Shown one piece after another: positions 34,930 to 64,000 of a stretch of 64,000 nucleotides of DNA (its first letter is position 1; every line of letters begins with the position of its first letter). Position numbers and translations under genes: made by a program. The DNA is from Paracoccus sp. MBLB3053 (GTDB lineage Bacteria; Pseudomonadota; Alphaproteobacteria; Rhodobacterales; Rhodobacteraceae): contig NZ_JAVQLW010000004.1 in assembly GCF_031822435.1 (NCBI RefSeq), positions 1-64,000 of the forward strand, given 5' to 3'. The notes below the pieces were generated by a model. That model did no database searches. It was given only the letters and a program-made list of their open reading frames with translations, and was not told where the DNA came from.

Positions 34930-35062
34930 CGGCCCGCGATCTTACCGCCAAGTTTCGGCCTGTCGCGTCCAGCGGCGGGCCCCGGCAGGGAAGCGGAAAA
35001 TCCGGACGAGCCGGATTTGCGCCTGATATGCCCACGCCGGTCGCAAAACGCGCCGGTCGCGG

Positions 35063-35725
35063 TCAGTAGCCCGCGCGGGCGAGCCAGGTTTCGAGATGCG
35101 CGATCACCTTCCCCCGGACCCAGCGCGATAGCGCCGGGGTCAGCCCGGCCAGACCCTCGGGATCAATCTCCTGGCAGAGCCGGGCATGGGTGGCGCGGGA
35201 GAGGGTGATCGAGCTGTCGAAACGATGCGCCGATTGTTTGGCGCGCTCGGCAGGGATGTCGCGGTAGTCGATCCCGGCCTCGAGTGCCGCGACGAGCTCG
35301 GGGCGCAATTCGATCATGGCGCGGCGGAGCACGGTGCCGGTCGGGCAGCGCGCCTTCTCGGCCCATGCTGCCGCGCGGACGACCAAATCATCGGGCAGGC
35401 GATAGAGCACCCGGATCGTCACCATGTCCTCGCCCGAGGCCCGCAACCCGCGTTGCGTGGCAGGGGTGCTGCCAGTGCGCGGTACCGCAGCGCGCTTTCG
35501 CTTGGCTGATGCTGTGGCTGCTCCTTTCGGTTGCGGGTCATTGCTGGATCCACTTGGCGTCTCGGTCTCGGGCAATACGACTGTGTTTTCGGCTCGGCGT
35601 GTTGGCGGCAAAGGCTCTGCCAGTGGCGTGGGCGGCGAGTTCTCAGCTGCAGCTTCAAACTCCAGCCGCCGGCTAAAGCCGGGATCGGGTGCCGAGATCC
35701 GGCCCGGCAGCTTGAGCTTGGCCAT
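35063..35725 (-). CDS. VirC2-like conjugal transfer accessory protein
   Basis: 220-residue protein with a disordered, Pro/Ser-rich N-terminal half and a folded C-terminal half (about 105-218, TIRVLYRLPDDLVVRAAAWA) resembling the ribbon-helix-helix fold of VirC2. In Ti plasmids VirC2 helps VirC1 at the overdrive next to the T-DNA border. It follows the VirC1-like gene with stop and start abutting (35725/35725), so the two are coupled. Assignment is from gene pairing and weak sequence similarity. Confidence 0.65.
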   Translation of the reverse strand: MAKLKLPGRISAPDPGFSRRLEFEAAAENSPPTPLAEPLPPTRRAENTVVLPETETPSGSSNDPQPKGAATASAKRKRAAVPRTGSTPATQRGLRASGEDMVTIRVLYRLPDDLVVRAAAWAEKARCPTGTVLRRAMIELRPELVAALEAGIDYRDIPAERAKQSAHRFDSSITLSRATHARLCQEIDPEGLAGLTPALSRWVRGKVIAHLETWLARAGY

Positions 35726-36441
35726 TACGCCTCCTCCCGGATGGTGCGGTCGAGCTCCAAGAGGACCTCGTCCATTTCCTGCAGCGCCGTTCCGAGGTGG
35801 TTCGCGACGCCGGGATTCTTCGTCTTGCGGCGGATCTCGCCCAAGAGCCCCTGACCGTCGAGCCGGGTATACATCGCCCGGTTCATCACCACTTCGCCCA
35901 GAACCGGCATATTGCGGATCACCCTCTCATAGATCTCCTGCTCGGCTGCCGAGCGCGAGAGCGGTACGCGATTGAGCAGCACGCGGAAGGGCGGCAATTC
36001 GGCAGGATCCTCGACGCGGGATTTGAGCCGGACATACCAGAGCCCGGTCTCGAGGCTTTCCTCGTAATTATTCGCCGAGAGCATGCAGGGCGCGATCAGG
36101 AGATGCGAGATCAAAGCGAGATGATCCTGCGCCTCAGAGCCGCCACCAAAAGTGTCGACCAGGATCAGGTGCTCCTGGTCGGGCTGGGCAAAGATCGCGC
36201 TGATCTCCTCGATAACCATCGCCGCTGAGAGCGTCGGGATGACCCGGACCAGGTCATTCCAATGGTCCTGCGCCTTGGCGCGTTCCATCCATTTCCAGCT
36301 GCTGCGGCTCTCATCGGTGTCGAAGATCGTCACGCTCTCGCCGCGTTCGGCGGCAGCCGAGGCGAGCCCCATGATCAAGGTGGTCTTGCCGCAGCCGCCC
36401 TTGCGGTTCATCGCGGTCATGACACGAATGCCATTCTGCAT
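35725..36441 (-). CDS. VirC1/ParA-like ATPase
   Basis: 238-residue MinD/ParA-superfamily ATPase. The deviant Walker A is RKGGCGKTT (13-21, both lysines present), with FDTDESRSSWKWMER and ILVDTFGGGSEAQDH as Walker A' and B regions. Pairing with a VirC2-like gene and divergence from mobC-relaxase genes across a structured gap make a VirC1-like role, recruiting the relaxosome to the pole or oriT, more likely than plasmid partition. A GGAGGAG site precedes the ATG at 36441. Confidence 0.78.
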   Translation of the reverse strand: MQNGIRVMTAMNRKGGCGKTTLIMGLASAAAERGESVTIFDTDESRSSWKWMERAKAQDHWNDLVRVIPTLSAAMVIEEISAIFAQPDQEHLILVDTFGGGSEAQDHLALISHLLIAPCMLSANNYEESLETGLWYVRLKSRVEDPAELPPFRVLLNRVPLSRSAAEQEIYERVIRNMPVLGEVVMNRAMYTRLDGQGLLGEIRRKTKNPGVANHLGTALQEMDEVLLELDRTIREEA

Positions 36442-37125
36442 CAGCTCTCCTCCGGTTCCGCCGTGCGCAATTCAACGCACCTCCCAAAAGGCAATACCCG
36501 CATAGCGCGATACGTAACACACGAAACACGACACGCGAAGCCATAAGCGGAAAGCGGCACATGCGATGCGGAACCCGTCTCGCAGCATGCGGGTCTTGCG
36601 CTTGGAGAACGCTCGTCTCCCCGCGCCAATTCAGCGGGTTTCGGCGCTGGCGAGCTCCTGCCGCGGCACGATGCGGCCGTGTCATGGGGTGCCGCCGCCG
36701 TCCCGGCCTCAGCTATCTGCACACTGCGCCGTCCAGATGCATGGCCAGTTTTAGGGCAAATCTTTCACCGCTTCGCGGTAACTTCGCCGTTTTGGGCGAT
36801 GAAGCCGCGCCGCCGCTACACCACGCTCGCAGGTGCCAGGCAGTCCCACAACCCTGCCCGCAGGTCTTTGGGACTGCCTCACGGCAGCGGCTGCCCGAGG
36901 GGGCAGCCTCAGGGCGCGCCGCGCCCGAAACGGCCGGGCCTCCAGCCCGAAGCCTTGGGACGTGAAGCAAACGGACCCTTTGCGCCGCACCGATGGCCTC
37001 CCGGTCAGCGCGCCCTTCGCAAGCTCCGGTTGCGTTGACACAGGGAGTCGCATCTGGCAGCAAAGGGCTATGGCAGGAAATGCAGAATGTGTACAAAGCT
37101 CGCGCCCTGCCGGATCGGAGGAGCA
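36442..37125. other. Candidate origin of transfer (oriT) region
   Basis: A 680-bp gap between divergent virC-like and mobC-relaxase genes. It holds a perfect 11-bp inverted repeat AGGCAGTCCCA (36838-36848) / TGGGACTGCCT (36869-36879), a second stem GGCTGCCC (36889-36896) / GGGCAGCC (36901-36908), and several G+C-rich palindromes just after. Near virC1 are short direct repeats ACACGAA-ACACGAC-ACACGCG (about 36513-36535), reminiscent of an overdrive. I found no clear IncP/Ti-type nic consensus, so the nick site is not assigned. Confidence 0.55.
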
Positions 37126-37641
37126 GTGACGACAATCACGCAGGGCTCAGATCAAAGGCGAGGGGCGGCAGATGCTGCCGCCACTGGGATGGACGTTGCC
37201 AAGCTGAAGCGAGCCAAGACCCGGCGCATTCGGGAATCCGGGGCGACCACGACCTCGGGCAAGGCGGTGACGGTGCGGCTCTCGCCGGAAGAACTCGAGG
37301 CGCTTTCTCGGCTGCAGGCGCGCATGGGCGCGGGGTCGCGTTCGGATGCCTTGCGCTCGGTGCTGCGTGCCAGCGTCGGCATGCTGGAATTCCCGCCCGA
37401 GGAGGCCGCGAAGCTCGGCGAGATCAAAGCCGAGCTGCATAAGATCGGCGTCAATGTGAACCAGATCGCCTTGGCCGCCAATCGCGGGCGCGTCGATCTC
37501 GCCCGGGCCGAATGGCAGGTGCTGAACGAATTGCGCCTCACGCTGCCGAAGCTCCGGACCTGGCTCAATGCCGTGGTCGAGGAACAGCGCCGCCGTGGCG
37601 TGCGGCTCTTCCGCAGCTATTCGGAGCGTGCCGATGGCTAG
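37126..37641 (+). CDS. mobC: MobC-like relaxosome accessory protein
   Basis: 171-residue protein with an N-terminal ribbon-helix-helix (KAVTVRLSPEELEALSRLQA) and the MobC C-terminal motif AELHKIGVNVNQIALAANRG. MobC binds oriT and opens DNA for the relaxase. The GTG at 37126 sits close behind GGAGGAG; an ATG at 37189 (MDVAKLK) is an alternative start. Its end overlaps the relaxase ATG by 8 bp, a normal relaxosome operon layout. Confidence 0.82.
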   Translation: MTTITQGSDQRRGAADAAATGMDVAKLKRAKTRRIRESGATTTSGKAVTVRLSPEELEALSRLQARMGAGSRSDALRSVLRASVGMLEFPPEEAAKLGEIKAELHKIGVNVNQIALAANRGRVDLARAEWQVLNELRLTLPKLRTWLNAVVEEQRRRGVRLFRSYSERADG

Positions 37642-39463
37642 GGCAACGGATCCTATCCTCGAGGAGTTGCGCCTACGCTATTTGCGCGGCGGCAGCACTT
37701 CCGCGCGGCAGCGCTTCACCACCCGGGCCAATAATCTCTGGCGTCTGGCTCAGGGCTCGAATGCCGCTGTGCTGAAGAAGATCCATAACGGCGGTACCCA
37801 TAGCCGCAAGCAGCTCGGCAATCAGTTCGACTATCTCTTCTCCAAGGCGAGCGCGATCTTCGGCAATATGGTCGAGCATGACCCTGAGCGTCGCACCTTG
37901 AGCCGCGCGGAGCGCAAGACCATCGCCACGGATTGGGAAGATGCCTGGACGGGTGACCCGAAGAATGGTCATACCACGCATCTGCTTTTGTCCTTTCCGG
38001 CCGATGTCGCGCCCCATCGCGCATTGCAGGTCGCCGAGATCTGGGCCGCGGAAATGTTCCAAAGCGGCATGCATGTCGAGGATGAATGGGCCTATATCGC
38101 AGCTTTGCATAGCGATCGCAGCCATCCCCATGTCCATATTGTCCTCAACAATCGCGGGCTGGAAAACGATACCTGGTTCTACATGGCCAGGGGCCATGCC
38201 TTTGACGTGATCACGATGAAGGAGCGCATGGTCGAGATCGCCGCCGAACAGGGGCTTTTTCTCGACAGTGCCTCGCGCATCGAGCGCGGCAAGCTCACCT
38301 ATGGTCCCTCGCGCGTCGAGCTCGAGCGCGCCTTGCGCGAAGGGCGCGAGGTTCGGGAAATGCCGCTGCACGGCGCAGCCGTGCGCGATGCCCTGGTGCA
38401 GATCCGCGAGAATGTCGCGACCTTGCAGCTCTTTGCCTCCATGGCGCGGCAGAGTCGCGAGGCGGAATTGGCCGTCAAGATCGAAGCGGTCGCGCAGATC
38501 CTTTCGCGCGGCGGAATCATTCAATCGACGGAGGACCTCATGCAGGCACAAGACGTTCAGAACCGTGGCGATCTCGGCCTCTATTACGATGCCTGGCTCG
38601 ACCGGGTCGAAACCGGCATCCGGCAATTGCCGCAATCCGAGCAGGGCGAGACGCGGCGGGAATTCTATGCGGCGGCATCCGATGTCGCACGAGAATTGGG
38701 CGATGACCGCGGCGCTGCATTGATGCATCGCCCGGCGCGTGAGGCCCTGCATCGCAGCCAGATTGATGACCGCGCGATCACCCGCGATGGCACCACGCGC
38801 GAGATCGGCAATGACGGCATCGCCGAGATACGGGCGCAGATTTCCGATGCGGCGAAATCCGCCGGGCTTGATCCGGCCCAAATCCAGGACCGCATGGGCC
38901 AGGGCGCGGCCAATGCCTGGCAAGAGCGCGATTGGGTGCGGCGGGATATTCAGGCCGTGGCCGAAAGCCGGCATCTCGATCTCGCAAGCGAAAAGGACCA
39001 GGGGAAGGCGGCAGGCCTGGTCGAGAGTTTTTATGCCAAGGCGGCGGAACTCCTCGATCGCGCCCTTGAACCGCGCCGCGAGCATGACCGTATGTCACGC
39101 ACGCTGCAGACCATGGCGCAGGCGCTGAAGCAGGACGGGCAGGTGGCCTTCCAGAGTGACGACCATGCCGGGCGCTTCGCCAAGGATCTGCGCCAGCGTT
39201 ATGGCGAGGACCTGATGGCGCGGCTGGTCAAGGGCGACGATCGCGCCTTGGCGCTCGATATTCCGGACCCTGCGCAAAGGCGCGACATCGCGCGCGCCAT
39301 CATCACGGCAGCCGAGCAGCATGAGAGCATGGGCATGAGCCTGAAGCAGGTTCAGGAGGCCAAGATGCGTTTGCAGGATCTGGGCGCGGATGAGAACCGG
39401 CGCGAGTCGGACCGCTCGCCATCGATCACCCGTGAGGATCGAGACCGCGACCGGGAACGCTAG
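37634..39463 (+). CDS. VirD2/MobA-type relaxase (MOBP-like)
   Basis: 609-residue conjugative relaxase that would nick oriT and pilot the strand. The N-terminal relaxase domain carries the HUH-type signature HSDRSHPHVHIV (H159, H164, H166, H168) and a likely catalytic tyrosine at Y68 in NQFDYLFSKA. The C-terminal half (about 280-609) is long, helical and charged, with no primase or helicase motif, and ends in a Glu/Arg-rich tail that could be a secretion signal. The ATG at 37634 overlaps mobC. No coupling protein or mating-pair genes are in the window, so transfer would need a helper. Confidence 0.85.
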   Translation: MARATDPILEELRLRYLRGGSTSARQRFTTRANNLWRLAQGSNAAVLKKIHNGGTHSRKQLGNQFDYLFSKASAIFGNMVEHDPERRTLSRAERKTIATDWEDAWTGDPKNGHTTHLLLSFPADVAPHRALQVAEIWAAEMFQSGMHVEDEWAYIAALHSDRSHPHVHIVLNNRGLENDTWFYMARGHAFDVITMKERMVEIAAEQGLFLDSASRIERGKLTYGPSRVELERALREGREVREMPLHGAAVRDALVQIRENVATLQLFASMARQSREAELAVKIEAVAQILSRGGIIQSTEDLMQAQDVQNRGDLGLYYDAWLDRVETGIRQLPQSEQGETRREFYAAASDVARELGDDRGAALMHRPAREALHRSQIDDRAITRDGTTREIGNDGIAEIRAQISDAAKSAGLDPAQIQDRMGQGAANAWQERDWVRRDIQAVAESRHLDLASEKDQGKAAGLVESFYAKAAELLDRALEPRREHDRMSRTLQTMAQALKQDGQVAFQSDDHAGRFAKDLRQRYGEDLMARLVKGDDRALALDIPDPAQRRDIARAIITAAEQHESMGMSLKQVQEAKMRLQDLGADENRRESDRSPSITREDRDRDRER

Positions 39464-39493
39464 GACCAAGGCAAAGGGGAGGAGGGCCGGGCA

Positions 39494-39739
39494 ATGGAAA
39501 TCGATGAGGACAAGATTGACGATTGCGCGCTGGCCTTGCTTTTCCTCACCCTGGATCGCGATCACCGGGCCTGGAAGGGCTTCGACTGGGCGGTACTGCA
39601 GCGTCTGCACGACAAGGGCTATATCGGCGATCCGGTCAATAAGGCAAAATCCGTTTGGCTGACCCAGGAAGGGGCCGCGCGATCCCGGGCGCTCTTGGAG
39701 GCCTATTTCTCAAAGCCAGCAGGCAAGGACAGTGCATGA
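39494..39739 (+). CDS. DUF6429-type small protein
   Basis: 81-residue protein, MEIDEDKIDDCALALLFLTL then AWKGFDWAVLQRLHDKGYIG, matching the DUF6429 family of unknown function, a winged-helix-like fold by appearance. A GGGGAGGAGG site precedes the ATG. It lies 30 bp after the relaxase and overlaps the next gene (ATGA), so it is in the relaxase operon. Confidence 0.7.
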   Translation: MEIDEDKIDDCALALLFLTLDRDHRAWKGFDWAVLQRLHDKGYIGDPVNKAKSVWLTQEGAARSRALLEAYFSKPAGKDSA

Positions 39740-40841: not shown

Positions 40842-41157
40842 TTGGGCGGTAAGCCGACCTTCGGCGGTGCGGCACAGCATCCGCAGTAATCTGAGATAGC
40901 AGCCATTCGTGCGCGTCGCAGCGAAACTTGGACCGTCACAGGCTCATCGGGCGGAAAGCTGACTTGCGGCAGCGCGGCACTGCATCCGCGGCAGTGTGAG
41001 ATAGCAATCCTTCGTGCGCGTCGCAGCGAAAGTGGGACCGTCATGGGCCCATCGAGCGGTAAGCTGACCACTGCGGTGCGGCATGATCGTCAGGGCAGAC
41101 CGCGGGAGCGGTCGTTCAGTCGGCGCGCAGCGGAAAACGTGGTCTCATGATCAAGGT
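40842..41157. repeat. Tandem 105-bp repeats, units 1-3
   Basis: Three degenerate units start at 40842, 40947 and 41052, each 105 bp. Each begins with a GGGCGGTAAGCTGAC-type block, has a TTCGTGCGCGTCGCAGCG-type block near position 70 and a GGACCGTCA-type block near 90 (conservation drops in unit 3). The array continues as units 4-6 to the right of the IS256 element; removing the element and one copy of its target repeat restores the 105-bp phase. The period is 35 codons and equals ten helical turns. No supported gene. Confidence 0.75.
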
Positions 41158-42534
41158 GAGTAATGGGCGAAAGTTGGTGATGGTCTGAAGGGTGGCATAT
41201 CAAGGCGGTGTTCAAGACGCCGTCAGTTCTCAGCAGAGAAAAGGATACGCCACATGTCATTGACTACCATCACGCAGCTGCCCGATCCATCCGGTTTCAG
41301 CGCCGACCCGTTCACCGACATCATCCGTGACGGCGCGCGCAAGCTGATCGAACAAGCGATCCACGCAGAATTGGCGGCGCTGATGGCCGCATTCTCTGAG
41401 GAAAAGCTCGAGAACGGCAGATCGCGGCTGGTGCGGCACGGTCACTTGCCGGAACGCGAGGTCATGACCGGGATCGGCCCAGTGCCCGTTAAGGTTCCTC
41501 GGGTGCGGGATCGCAAACCCGGTGAGGACAAGATCAGCTTCACGCCCAGCATCCTGCCGCGATACCTGCGCAAGGCGAAATCGGTCGAGGAATTGCTGCC
41601 TTGGCTTTACCTCAAGGGCGTCAGCACCGGCGATTTCAGCGAAGCGTTGGCGGCTCTTCTGGGCCCGAAGGCCGCGGGTCTTTCCGCCAAGACGATCACC
41701 CGGCTGAAGGCAGATTGGTGGAATGACTATGAGGCTTGGCAAAAACGCGACCTGGGCAACCGGCGCTTCCTCTACATCTGGGCCGACGGGGTCTATTTCA
41801 AACCTCGCATGGCCGAAGAAAAGCAATGCGTTCTGGTGATCGTCGGGGCCGATGAATATGGCCGCAAGGAACTTCTGGCGATGACCGACGGCTTCCGCGA
41901 GAGCGCCGAGAACTGGCGCGAGTTGCTGCTCGATCTCAAACGCCGAGGCCTGAAGCAAGACCCGAAACTGGCTATCGGAGACGGCGCTCTTGGCTTCTGG
42001 ACCGCACTCCGCGAGGTCTTCGCCTCCACCCACGAGCAACGCTGCTGGGTGCATAAGACCATGAACGTTCTGAACGCGCTGCCCAAATCGCTGCAGGACA
42101 AGGCCAAGGCTCATCTGCAGGATATCTGGCAAGCCGAAACCAAGGCCGAGGCCAGCGCCGCCTTTGATTTCTTCGTCGAGACTTACGGGGTGAAATACGA
42201 CAAGGCCGTTGCCAAGCTGGTCAAGGATCGCTCCGCGCTGCTCACCTTTTACGACTATCCGGCCGAACACTGGAAACACGTCCGGACGTCCAATCCAATT
42301 GAAAGCACCTTCGCTACCGTCCGGCATCGCACGCAGCGCACCAAGGGATGCCTTAGCCGCAAAACCGGGCTGGCCATGGCCTTCAAGCTGATGATGTCAG
42401 CGCAGCGCAAATGGCGCAAACTCGATGGCCAGAACCGCCTGCCGGAAATCATCCAAGGGGTTGAGTTCCGCGACGGCCTCCGCCAACTTCAAGCCGCCGC
42501 CTGATCAGGCGTCACCAACTTTCGCCCATATCTC
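41158..42534 (+). mobile_element. Complete IS256-family insertion sequence
   Basis: The 1377-bp element begins GAGTAATGGGCGAAAGTTGG and ends in the inverted repeat whose reverse complement is GAGATATGGGCGAAAGTTGG. It is flanked by a perfect direct repeat TCAAGGT at 41151-41157 and 42535-42541 (7 bp; IS256 elements usually duplicate 8-9 bp). The transposase gene is full length. Intact ends and target repeat indicate a fairly recent insertion into the 105-bp repeat array. Confidence 0.9.
41254..42504 (+). CDS. IS256-family transposase
   Basis: 416-residue mutator-type (IS256) DDE transposase. Typical segments are VPRVRDRKPGEDKISFTPSI, the first Asp region YIWADGVYFKPRM, LAIGDGALGFWTALREVF (second Asp) and a conserved CWVHKTMNVLNALPK, with the Glu in TSNPIESTFATVRHRT. 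No stop or frameshift. The ATG follows GAGAAAAGGA. Confidence 0.93.
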   Translation: MSLTTITQLPDPSGFSADPFTDIIRDGARKLIEQAIHAELAALMAAFSEEKLENGRSRLVRHGHLPEREVMTGIGPVPVKVPRVRDRKPGEDKISFTPSILPRYLRKAKSVEELLPWLYLKGVSTGDFSEALAALLGPKAAGLSAKTITRLKADWWNDYEAWQKRDLGNRRFLYIWADGVYFKPRMAEEKQCVLVIVGADEYGRKELLAMTDGFRESAENWRELLLDLKRRGLKQDPKLAIGDGALGFWTALREVFASTHEQRCWVHKTMNVLNALPKSLQDKAKAHLQDIWQAETKAEASAAFDFFVETYGVKYDKAVAKLVKDRSALLTFYDYPAEHWKHVRTSNPIESTFATVRHRTQRTKGCLSRKTGLAMAFKLMMSAQRKWRKLDGQNRLPEIIQGVEFRDGLRQLQAAA

Positions 42535-42540
42535 TCAAGG

Positions 42541-42856
42541 TCGGGCGGTAAGCTGACCACTACGATGCGGCATGGCAGCCGCAGAAAGATTGCGAGAGCG
42601 GCCGTTCAGGCGTTGCGCAGCGGGAAACCGCGCCTCGAGAGCTAGATCGGGCGGTGAGCTGACCACTGCGGCGCGGCATTGCGAACGCAGCAAGCTGGCA
42701 ATAACTGCCGTTCGTGCGCGTTGCCGAGAAATCTCGACCGTCACATGTCCTGCGGGCGGTTAGCTACCCACTGCGCTGTGGCACCACAGCCGCGGCATGA
42801 TTGCGGGTTCAGTCGTTCAGGCGGTGCGCAGCGGGCCGCACCTGAGGCTGCCGTTG
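42541..42856. repeat. Tandem 105-bp repeats, units 4-6
   Basis: Units start at about 42541, 42647 and 42752 (lengths 106, 105 and 105). The leading block is GGGCGGTAAGCTGACCACT in unit 4 and variants of it in 5 and 6, and a TTCAGGCGTTGCGCAGCG-type block recurs near position 70. The array stops at about 42856, where an IS91-type scar starts. Units 3, 4 and 6 resemble each other most in the middle block; units 1, 2 and 5 share the TTCGTGCGCGT block, so two subtypes exist. Confidence 0.72.
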
Positions 42857-45781: not shown

Positions 45782-45918
45782 AAATCTTTCCCGGCCCTCT
45801 TGAAACCGTCTGGAGGCGTAGTAGGTCTTCTGTCACGTGATGCCGCTAGGGTCACGCGCGGCCCTTCCTCTGAGGCGAGGGGCCTTACAAACTGTTTGTC
45901 CAATTGAGGAGAACAAAC

Positions 45919-47915
<1,997 letters not shown>

Positions 47916-60227: not shown

Positions 60228-60699
60228 GCCTGATGTCGTGGACCTGCAGATCAGGTCGGCGGTGTCATCCTTGCCCGCGTCTTCGTAAATCTGACCGCTT
60301 GGCGTCTGTCTGACAGCATTGCGAATGCTGCAGGGGGAATTTGGCGCAGTCGACTATTCAACATGCTGTTCCAGCTATGAGGCGCGTGTTGCCGCTGTGC
60401 GCCAAATGACCGACGGTTCAGAAAATTTGCTGCAGTTGCTATGCCGCAAAGCAGCTGGCAGCTTCTGTGCGCGGCGGACCATCTATGTTGTAAGTGCCAG
60501 CACTCACATGCTGCGGGCGCGAAAGGCCGGTTTGTCCGCATCACAGACCGTCATAGGCTCGAAATGCTGCGCCACGTGTCGAATGGCCGCTTCGGCGAAT
60601 ACCGCCGTGCGGCATCGGCGGTGCTCGACCGTCGGCAAAGGGCCCGCCTTTGTGATGACATAACATGGCGGGTGGCATAGCACAAAGGTGATGTCGGGA
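60228..60699. other. Intergenic stretch without recognisable genes
   Basis: About 470 bp. Open frames exist on both strands (for example 60319-60663) but lack ribosome-binding sites and look like degenerate GC-rich sequence. No RNA gene or repeat seen. Confidence 0.35.
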
Positions 60700-61679: not shown

Positions 61680-61993
61680 CGCGCGTGCCCATCCGTTTCG
61701 GCAAGAGAAATCCTAGAGTGTCTTCCTACGCAGCGTTTGGTTGAACCGGCGGGGCCTCGATAGGGTTAAACTCTCAGGAGGCTTTCATACACAGCCGGAT
61801 TTGGCATACTCCAGAACTGCCTTTCACCTCTGACCCATGCTGCCTCACCGCATCCCCGGAAATGGGCGCTCGGGCGCCGCGCAGCTAGATCGTCGTTTTG
61901 ACCATAGTTCAGCTAACCATCTTGCGTTCCATCACCTAACAACTTTTGAACTGCTTAGGCGCAACGCCCATCGACGACGCTATGTGAGGGCGT
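61680..61993. other. Intergenic stretch without recognisable genes
   Basis: About 310 bp between the PPC relic and the DUF1254 gene; AT-richer in the last 80 bp. No ORF or RNA recognised. Confidence 0.35.
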
Positions 61994-63690: not shown

Positions 63691-64000
63691 ACGGCGAGGA
63701 GGTTCCTGCTGCGAGATGCCTGACCGGCCGCTATGACGAAACTGCCGCGCCACCTTGGCTGTAGTCGAACGGCCGCAATGGGCCGGCCCGCCCTGGCGGA
63801 GAGCAGGAAGCCCAACTCAGTCAGATCAGCCAATTGCTGTCCCGCAGCATGTTGCTCGGAGCCCCAAAGCCGCCGGTCGCGGACTGACCTACAGTCCAGT
63901 GCTCGCCGGTCGCGAATAGCCCCAAAGCGGTCGTTCGCGCACATTCTACGAGTGGCGGACGAAGCGGTCGTAGCGGTGGCCCTGGCGTCACTCGATAACC
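63691..64000. other. Terminal stretch without recognisable genes
   Basis: About 310 bp to the window edge. It has GCCGGTCGCG and GCGGTCG repeats and an open frame on the minus strand without a start signal; nothing recognised. A gene beyond the edge cannot be excluded. Confidence 0.3.

Follow-up and report, generated by a model that had tools for sequence, protein, structure and literature searches.

The 64,000-nucleotide stretch of Paracoccus sp. MBLB3053 DNA analysed here (contig NZ_JAVQLW010000004.1, positions 1 to 64,000; hereafter the window) carries, at 40842-42850, an array of imperfect 105-bp units interrupted by an insertion sequence (IS). Our analysis indicates that these units are probably half-sites of a cassette-like, site-specific recombination system, and the array is a tandem run of sites that border gene modules; the original prediction, which had offered an iteron-like binding array, a structured RNA array or a decayed repeat-protein gene, was framed too narrowly. 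The units are members of a large and apparently undescribed family of DNA sites, at whose sharp left edge unrelated gene blocks meet in Paracoccus-type bacteria, and comparisons between genomes give good support to the left edge of the unit being a recombination border. A tyrosine recombinase gene often lies beside edges of a related unit type and, judged from sequence, its product is likely to be the enzyme.

The array consists of six units of 105-106 bp of the type termed T1, split by an intact IS256-family element. In the following lines the unit starts are profile origins, and the conserved edge, GGGCGG in five units and GAGCGG in one, lies two bases inside each start.

40842..40946, + strand: T1 unit 1, edge GGGCGG at 40844 (E 7e-24)
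40947..41051, + strand: T1 unit 2, edge at 40949 (E 7e-20)
41052..41157, + strand: T1 unit 3, edge GAGCGG at 41054, with the left TCAAGGT copy at its right end (E 1e-12)
41151..41157, unstranded: left target-site repeat TCAAGGT
41158..42534, + strand: intact IS256-family insertion sequence, transposase open reading frame at 41254-42504 (related plasmid copies are annotated IS256 family transposase)
42535..42541, unstranded: right target-site repeat TCAAGGT, ending 1 bp before the GGGCGG of unit 4
42541..42646, + strand: T1 unit 4, edge at 42543 (E 2e-18)
42647..42751, + strand: T1 unit 5, edge at 42649, the junction relative to G009:C10, identical rightwards from the edge and unrelated leftwards
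42752..42850, + strand: T1 unit 6, edge at 42754, right-hand DNA common to G009:C9 with homology from 23 bp inside the unit

The six tandem units had been proposed with these starts from the letters alone (unit 4 as beginning at 41157, with its right part at 42541), and the sequence itself, Tandem Repeats Finder (which called a period of 105 at 40844-41069) and our profile all agree with them. The claim that an intact IS256 element preserves the phase of the repeat is likewise supported, with TCAAGGT present at both sides and, when the flanks were joined at this heptamer and the element left out, a self-match of 40.1% of bases at lag 105, the only lag between 20 and 399 to exceed 36%. It was also correct that the units are not recent copies and are held in register, and this is equally valid in other genomes. 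Two middle-block types could be told apart by eye, as originally described, but they do not strictly alternate: the order in units 1-6 is A A B B A-like B, and unit 5 looks like a hybrid. As the target duplication ends 1 bp before the GGGCGG of unit 4, the unit edge may also be a preferred target of the insertion sequence.

Searches of the Rhodobacteraceae, a check proposed with the original prediction, revealed that the unit recurs across both genus and family. Within the same genome a DNA search located further copies, the best at an E value of 2e-24 (beyond chance), on C4 (the contig of the window), C6 and C1 (the largest contig), and a sequence model built from 14 copies (R1) gave 22 matches at E 0.01 and 37 at E 1. 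T1 matches were present in at least 80 of 125 genomes of the genus (E 1e-6) and, at E 1e-4, in at least 32 of 248 sampled family genomes representing at least 31 of 247 genera, these counts being lower bounds since few candidates were scored per genome; outside the family, weak hits at E 0.01 were found in 3 of 16 genomes. Plasmid records of Paracoccus carry the unit as well. At E 1e-5, profiles iterated over 150 loci (1.34 Mb) matched T1 200 times and a longer, related type, T2, 60 times. Several units (in G001:C164, G321:C14, G329:C231, G338:C136 and G383:C54) are no more than a few hundred bases from a contig end, as would be expected if units border multi-copy DNA. Our searches of the open-licence PubMed Central literature listed no paper with a title or abstract that points to these repeats, or to the recombinase together with them.

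The left edge of the unit is sharp in both types: T1 starts GGGCGG (0.94-0.99 per base in 114 solo T1 units) and its diverged relative T2 starts CGGCCC (0.90-0.97 per base in 41 T2 units). Two similar boxes follow this 6-bp core at the edge, the first of them conserved as AAAGCNGNC..TTCG, with a short inverted repeat between them; next comes a spacer of variable sequence and nearly constant length. The borders observed are G+C-rich hexamers with long conserved arms. Conservation in T1 extends over about 82 bp at 0.4-1.0 bit per base (10-base means) and declines to about 0.1 over the final 20 or so bases. A weak motif, ATCGACGNNAA, also precedes the 114 non-redundant solo T1 units, reaching from -11 to the edge with 37-62% agreement per named base. 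Where T1 neighbours lie less than 300 bp apart their spacing is 103-107 bp in 51 of 58 cases and exactly 105 in 27, a count made without the plasmid records L158, L159 and L161, two of which repeat genome loci; L160 and L295 are possibly closely related strains. Units of one locus share a mean identity of 59% (57 pairs) as against 53% for units of different loci (3513 pairs). A 52-bp sub-period was rejected, the best self-match of the consensus being at lags 30 and 35 (mirror 70 and 75). T2 units stand 2.5-3.7 kb apart in the same orientation in loci L090 and L197; a gene seemingly truncated at a T2 edge (L197 3142-3819) was dropped, as it had no Pfam match.

The evidence that the edge is a recombination border comes from pairwise alignment of each of the 150 loci with every other, with a minimum of 300 bp and 80% identity. 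Of 386 free alignment ends, 56 lay up to 400 bp from a unit edge with the unit side kept and 74 with the unit side lost; among the 56, 32 were within 25 bp of the edge and none was 75-400 bp outside it. When collapsed to one end per locus pair (the end nearest the edge, within 150 bp), 23 pairs kept the unit side, 11 of them breaking within 3 bp of the edge and 13 within 8 bp, where the 11 pairs represent about nine independent loci, several pairs coming from each of four loci. The non-IS pairs with an identity of 99% or more, five in number, all break at -3 to 0 of the edge. In four of them the unit's first 45 bp agree throughout, and in the fifth 44 of the 45 do; as the unit is identical or nearly so to its first base, similarity between unlike units did not produce the break. 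One of the five is at unit 5 of the window, where the relative G009 is 99.85% identical from 42646 rightwards over 4.7 kb and, leftwards, has the end of an AraC gene in place of unit 4. At a second place in the same relative (G009:C9) identity is about 90% to the right of unit 6, other DNA lies to the left, and homology starts 23 bp inside the unit.

Modules shared on the left end in a corresponding manner. An AraC module (L140 and L269, 87% identical) and a 2.6-kb module (L090, L139 and L142, 96-99.7%) each end at a constant position, to within about 10 bp, beyond which different units or unit-like starts follow. For L090/L139 the alignment continues for 83 bp into the following unit, but 3 of the first 45 bases of that unit differ, compared with about 0.3% for the module. 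At L142 8046 the 2.6-kb module is followed by DNA that starts CCGGCCC and is then unlike the T2 units found there in L090 and L139, which suggests that further site types exist. Locus L146 has one 105-bp unit more than L148 at the same place.

A motif search of the 1212 predicted genes of the loci identified eight tyrosine-recombinase-like genes, six of them from a single family, of which a protein search recovered a seventh member. The family, which occurs in 54 of 125 genus genomes (protein search with one member) and has at least 8000 homologues in the protein collection, consists of proteins of about 230 amino acids with the catalytic motif HSMRR ... LLGH ... Y; three of them matched Phage_integrase (PF00589) at 66.0, 64.9 and 55.5 bits against a gathering score of 27.1. 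They fall below every NCBIfam cut-off listed, and no PDB relative was found by sequence. We fetched 30 recombinase loci by protein similarity alone, irrespective of units, of which 27 were readable by script. In 21 of the 27 a unit lies on the same strand no more than 120 bp behind the stop codon, 20 of these being T2 edges at 22-47 bp (E below 1e-3) and one lying at 117 bp; in 8 of the 27 an outward-pointing unit stands at the 5' side of the gene. For each of the three remaining loci (L307, L317, L321) a T2 hit lies 16-35 bp away from where the reading frame or match ends. As a control within unit-rich DNA, 11 of 1205 other genes had a T2 edge in the 60 bp after their stop, as did 3 of 7 recombinase genes, and 8 of the 1205 had an outward T1 edge at the 5' side; the hexamer-plus-box pattern follows the stop in 18 of 30 recombinase loci and in 22 of 1114 genes. 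Across the genus, recombinase and T1 co-occur (T1 in 42 of 54 genomes with the gene and 38 of 71 without, p 0.008, uncorrected for descent).

The recombinase stop and T2 are separated by a hairpin, the right arm of which is formed by the T2 edge. In the 13 of 30 loci that were aligned, 93% of pair cells are standard pairs and the covariation score was reached by 2 of 500 shuffles; by eye, a similar hairpin with a GGCCC edge is present in 5 of 7 recombinase loci from other genera. A reading of the hairpin as a terminator was set aside because no T-run follows it in the sequences shown, although the hairpin may have a role in termination. If the gene were inserted at the core common to T1 and T2, head-to-head T1rc-CSGCCC-T2 sites without a recombinase would be predicted. 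One such site was present in the loci (L292), and the pattern had 13 matches in 12 of 125 genomes compared with one match for the reversed pattern, which lends moderate support to insertion of the gene at the shared core.

A mechanism consistent with these observations would have strand exchange take place at the unit edge, where the recombinase would cut at the hexamer; any DNA may then come to lie left of a unit, while the unit and its right-hand module stay together. A module would be one unit plus the genes up to the next edge. Modules without genes would be one unit long and would give tandem arrays of unlike units with a 105-bp period, and arrays would grow by insertion of such bare units. 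The enzyme would be the tyrosine recombinase of about 230 amino acids, too short for an arm-binding domain, whose gene often has a T2 edge on its 3' side and in some cases an outward T1 edge on its 5' side. Exchange may well still be in progress.

Several observations weigh against this reading. A majority of the free alignment ends (256 of 386) have no edge within 400 bp; 10 of the 23 collapsed pairs break more than 8 bp away, one of these being the end of the insertion sequence itself; and for the 42 left-shared pairs the break ranges from -142 to +83, in part an effect of alignments that continue into the unit. Exchange within units also occurs (as in window unit 6, at +23), which is what ordinary homologous recombination would give. 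No recombinase of the family is found at the window array, the only copy found in the genome (limits E 1e-15 and 1e-40) being 86 kb away on the same contig (C4:129182), and the 248 family genomes show no co-occurrence of recombinase and T1 (8 of 74 genomes with the gene have T1, and 24 of 174 without it, p 0.68). Phage_integrase was matched by 6 of 147 genes near units, which places it among the three commonest Pfam families but level with HTH_3 and HTH_31; this count refers to near genes only, 410 being near units, of which 150 were drawn and 147 scanned, without the window genes at 41254, 37568 and 48758. Double changes in the hairpin were seen at 2 of 10 pairs, not above shuffles, and only 2 of the 13 head-to-head matches have a profile hit on both sides, while one has none. 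The integron integrase model TIGR02249 was above its cut-off in none of 26 genomes, and a classical integron was rejected. Finally, the association with a relaxase operon noted originally holds in part: homologous relaxase modules lie left of T1 units on three other replicons (C6 of the same genome, G006:C4 and pBM151 of P. tegillarcae), whereas two relaxase stretches of G009 (L182, L183) that are related to the left-hand module of the window have no unit.

Among the alternatives, we regard it as unlikely, but as deserving serious attention, that the units are dispersed intergenic repeats (REP-, RIME- or MITE-like, the last being miniature inverted-repeat transposable elements) without a recombinase of their own, between copies of which modules are exchanged by RecA-dependent or microhomology recombination. 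Their position would fit, as 66 of 72 arrays or single units lie clear of predicted genes (two overlap slightly, 0.03 and 0.16, and four by more than 30%) in loci that a simple codon model predicts to be 79% coding, and copies are spread over C1, C4 and C6; the hybrid appearance of unit 5, the exchange with G009:C9 inside unit 6 and the additional unit of L146 relative to L148 point in the same direction. However, the five recent pairs exchanged at the outermost 0-3 bp and not inside the unit, and such repeats leave unexplained both the weak left arm outside the unit and the near-constant distance from recombinase stop to edge. That the edge is instead the terminus of a transposing element, one-ended or decayed, with the new left-hand DNA as its insertion target, appears improbable. 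It would account for left-hand DNA that differs with each arrangement beside a constant unit and right-hand DNA, and for the units near contig ends, but the AraC and 2.6-kb modules end at about the same place before different units, unlike independent insertions, and no dominant transposase family emerged among the 25 commonest of 149 families in the 147 of 410 near genes (an IS110 domain in 4).

We consider it very improbable that the units serve as an array to which a structural or partition protein binds, and that exchange at the edge is a by-product, even though conserved boxes with a variable spacer and a period of ten helical turns, kept as closely as the neighbour spacings above show, would suit such a role: many units are single, the orientation of flanking genes follows no rule that we could see, and junctions are exact at one edge. 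The iteron-like array originally suggested did not stand as far as replication iterons are concerned, since within this one genome a contig of chromosome size and two smaller replicons all carry copies and, on four annotated plasmids, the unit has no replication-initiator gene next to it; in two of these four, partition genes lie 1.4 and 5.4 kb from a unit. In the wider sense the suggestion survives, as the units are probably recombination sites bound by protein. A structured RNA array or a decayed repeat-protein gene has hardly any claim left. In favour of RNA, the consensus alone folds to -54 kcal/mol, being GC-rich, and 3 of 31 pairs of that fold exceed shuffles by more than 3 standard deviations. 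In this fold, however, the unconserved spacer pairs with the first box, and the long stem is not paired above shuffles; a weak 10-pair structure from folding the 14-copy alignment was gone with 76 non-redundant copies, for which RNAalifold gave no consensus structure on either strand, and Rfam had no match at gathering score in the window and none up to E 1 in two arrays. A coding unit was rejected because 29 of 58 neighbour spacings are not multiples of three and stops occur in all six frames on both sides of the insertion sequence; the failure to keep frame already refutes it, and the intergenic position agrees.

Outside the array, the window contains further units and, to the left, a mobilisation module:

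37087..37641, + strand: MobC-like gene of the left-hand module (Pfam RHH_1/MobC)
37568..39463, + strand: relaxase gene of the left-hand module (PF03432)
60374..60473, - strand: further T1 unit (E 1e-10)
60520..60646, - strand: T2 unit, 174 bp from the adjoining T1 unit (E 1e-22)
61806..61926, + strand: T2 unit facing the T2 unit at 60646, with 1.16 kb between edges (E 2e-12)
63697..63786, - strand: T2 unit (E 6e-12)

The pair at 60473-60646 is one of five in which T2 and T1 stand in the same orientation 172-175 bp apart, the others being L090 9623-9898, L139 4818-5093, L142 5439-5714 and L285. The ParA-like/MobC/relaxase module (window 35060-39540; L092 6340-10825; L183; L182) has copies of 85-88% identity, one on another replicon of the same genome and two in G009, each with different right-hand DNA. 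The module to the right of the array includes a groES-groEL-like pair (45904-47915); this stretch is absent from the related module of G009:C9, where homology jumps from about 45.2 to 47.3 kb. A copy of the IS256 element in G009:C7, 99.9% identical to that of the window, appears to interrupt the C-terminal end of a candidate recombinase gene.

Integron and superintegron cassette arrays combine an IntI integrase with attI and attC sites, the latter ending in GTTRRRY with a paired RYYYAAC. The present system resembles them in that a tyrosine recombinase gene accompanies the sites, that gene modules are separated by imperfect sites of about 105-126 bp, in some loci in the same orientation, and that exchange probably takes place at one edge. 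It differs in that the edge is GGGCGG or CGGCCC and not GTTRRRY, in that modules carry several genes on either strand, and in that tandem bare units are common; three of the candidate recombinases scored only 17-20 bits with TIGR02249 against a cut-off of 265. The system thus works like a cassette system but, by the tests made, is not an integron. The REP/BIME, RIME and Bru-RS families comprise dispersed intergenic bacterial repeats of about 100 bp, sometimes in tandem, from which the units are distinguished by the lack of a strong palindrome, by exact junctions at one edge and by the recombinase gene beside them; as to terminal inverted repeats and strong palindromes, features of MITE, REP and BIME elements, the 76 copies gave no consensus structure and the junction views no inverted termini. 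MITEPye1 of Paracoccus yeei is also a small, non-coding intergenic repeat of this genus, 159 bp long, with copies 96-100% identical at 1-3 per chromosome, 18-bp IS1182-type terminal inverted repeats and 4-bp direct repeats (PMC11578231), whereas our units are diverged, tandem and without such termini. The Xer/pdif modules of Acinetobacter plasmids, as described in PMC7399989, are likewise plasmid modules bordered by recombination sites and served by tyrosine recombinases, and the flanking Xer sites are said there to be without accessory sequences; in our case conservation covers about 80-126 bp of the site, the core of which is G+C-rich, and the candidate recombinase scored 48 bits against a XerC cut-off of 335 and 34 against a XerD cut-off of 330. 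The simple tyrosine recombinases of Smyshlyaev et al. 2021 (PMC8138268) resemble the candidate as short members of the Phage_integrase family, and in the text of that survey consulted, compared by description only, no named subgroup shuffles modules at long tandem sites in Alphaproteobacteria.

Taken together, these data suggest a possibly unrecognised way of gene shuffling. It is possible, and we propose it tentatively, that the system constitutes a third cassette-shuffling platform beside integrons and Xer/pdif, defined by an armless recombinase family, long bipartite sites with type-specific 6-bp cores, a self-integrating gene and tandem arrays of bare sites, and that it has shaped the plasmids and intergenic DNA of the Rhodobacteraceae. 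The plasmids of this group appear highly mosaic, and we know of no general mechanism for their joints. Here a set of such joints falls on a recognisable sequence and a candidate enzyme gene lies beside the same kind of sequence, so that the question of module exchange becomes experimentally simple; the units may also serve as a marker for module borders in alphaproteobacterial genomes.

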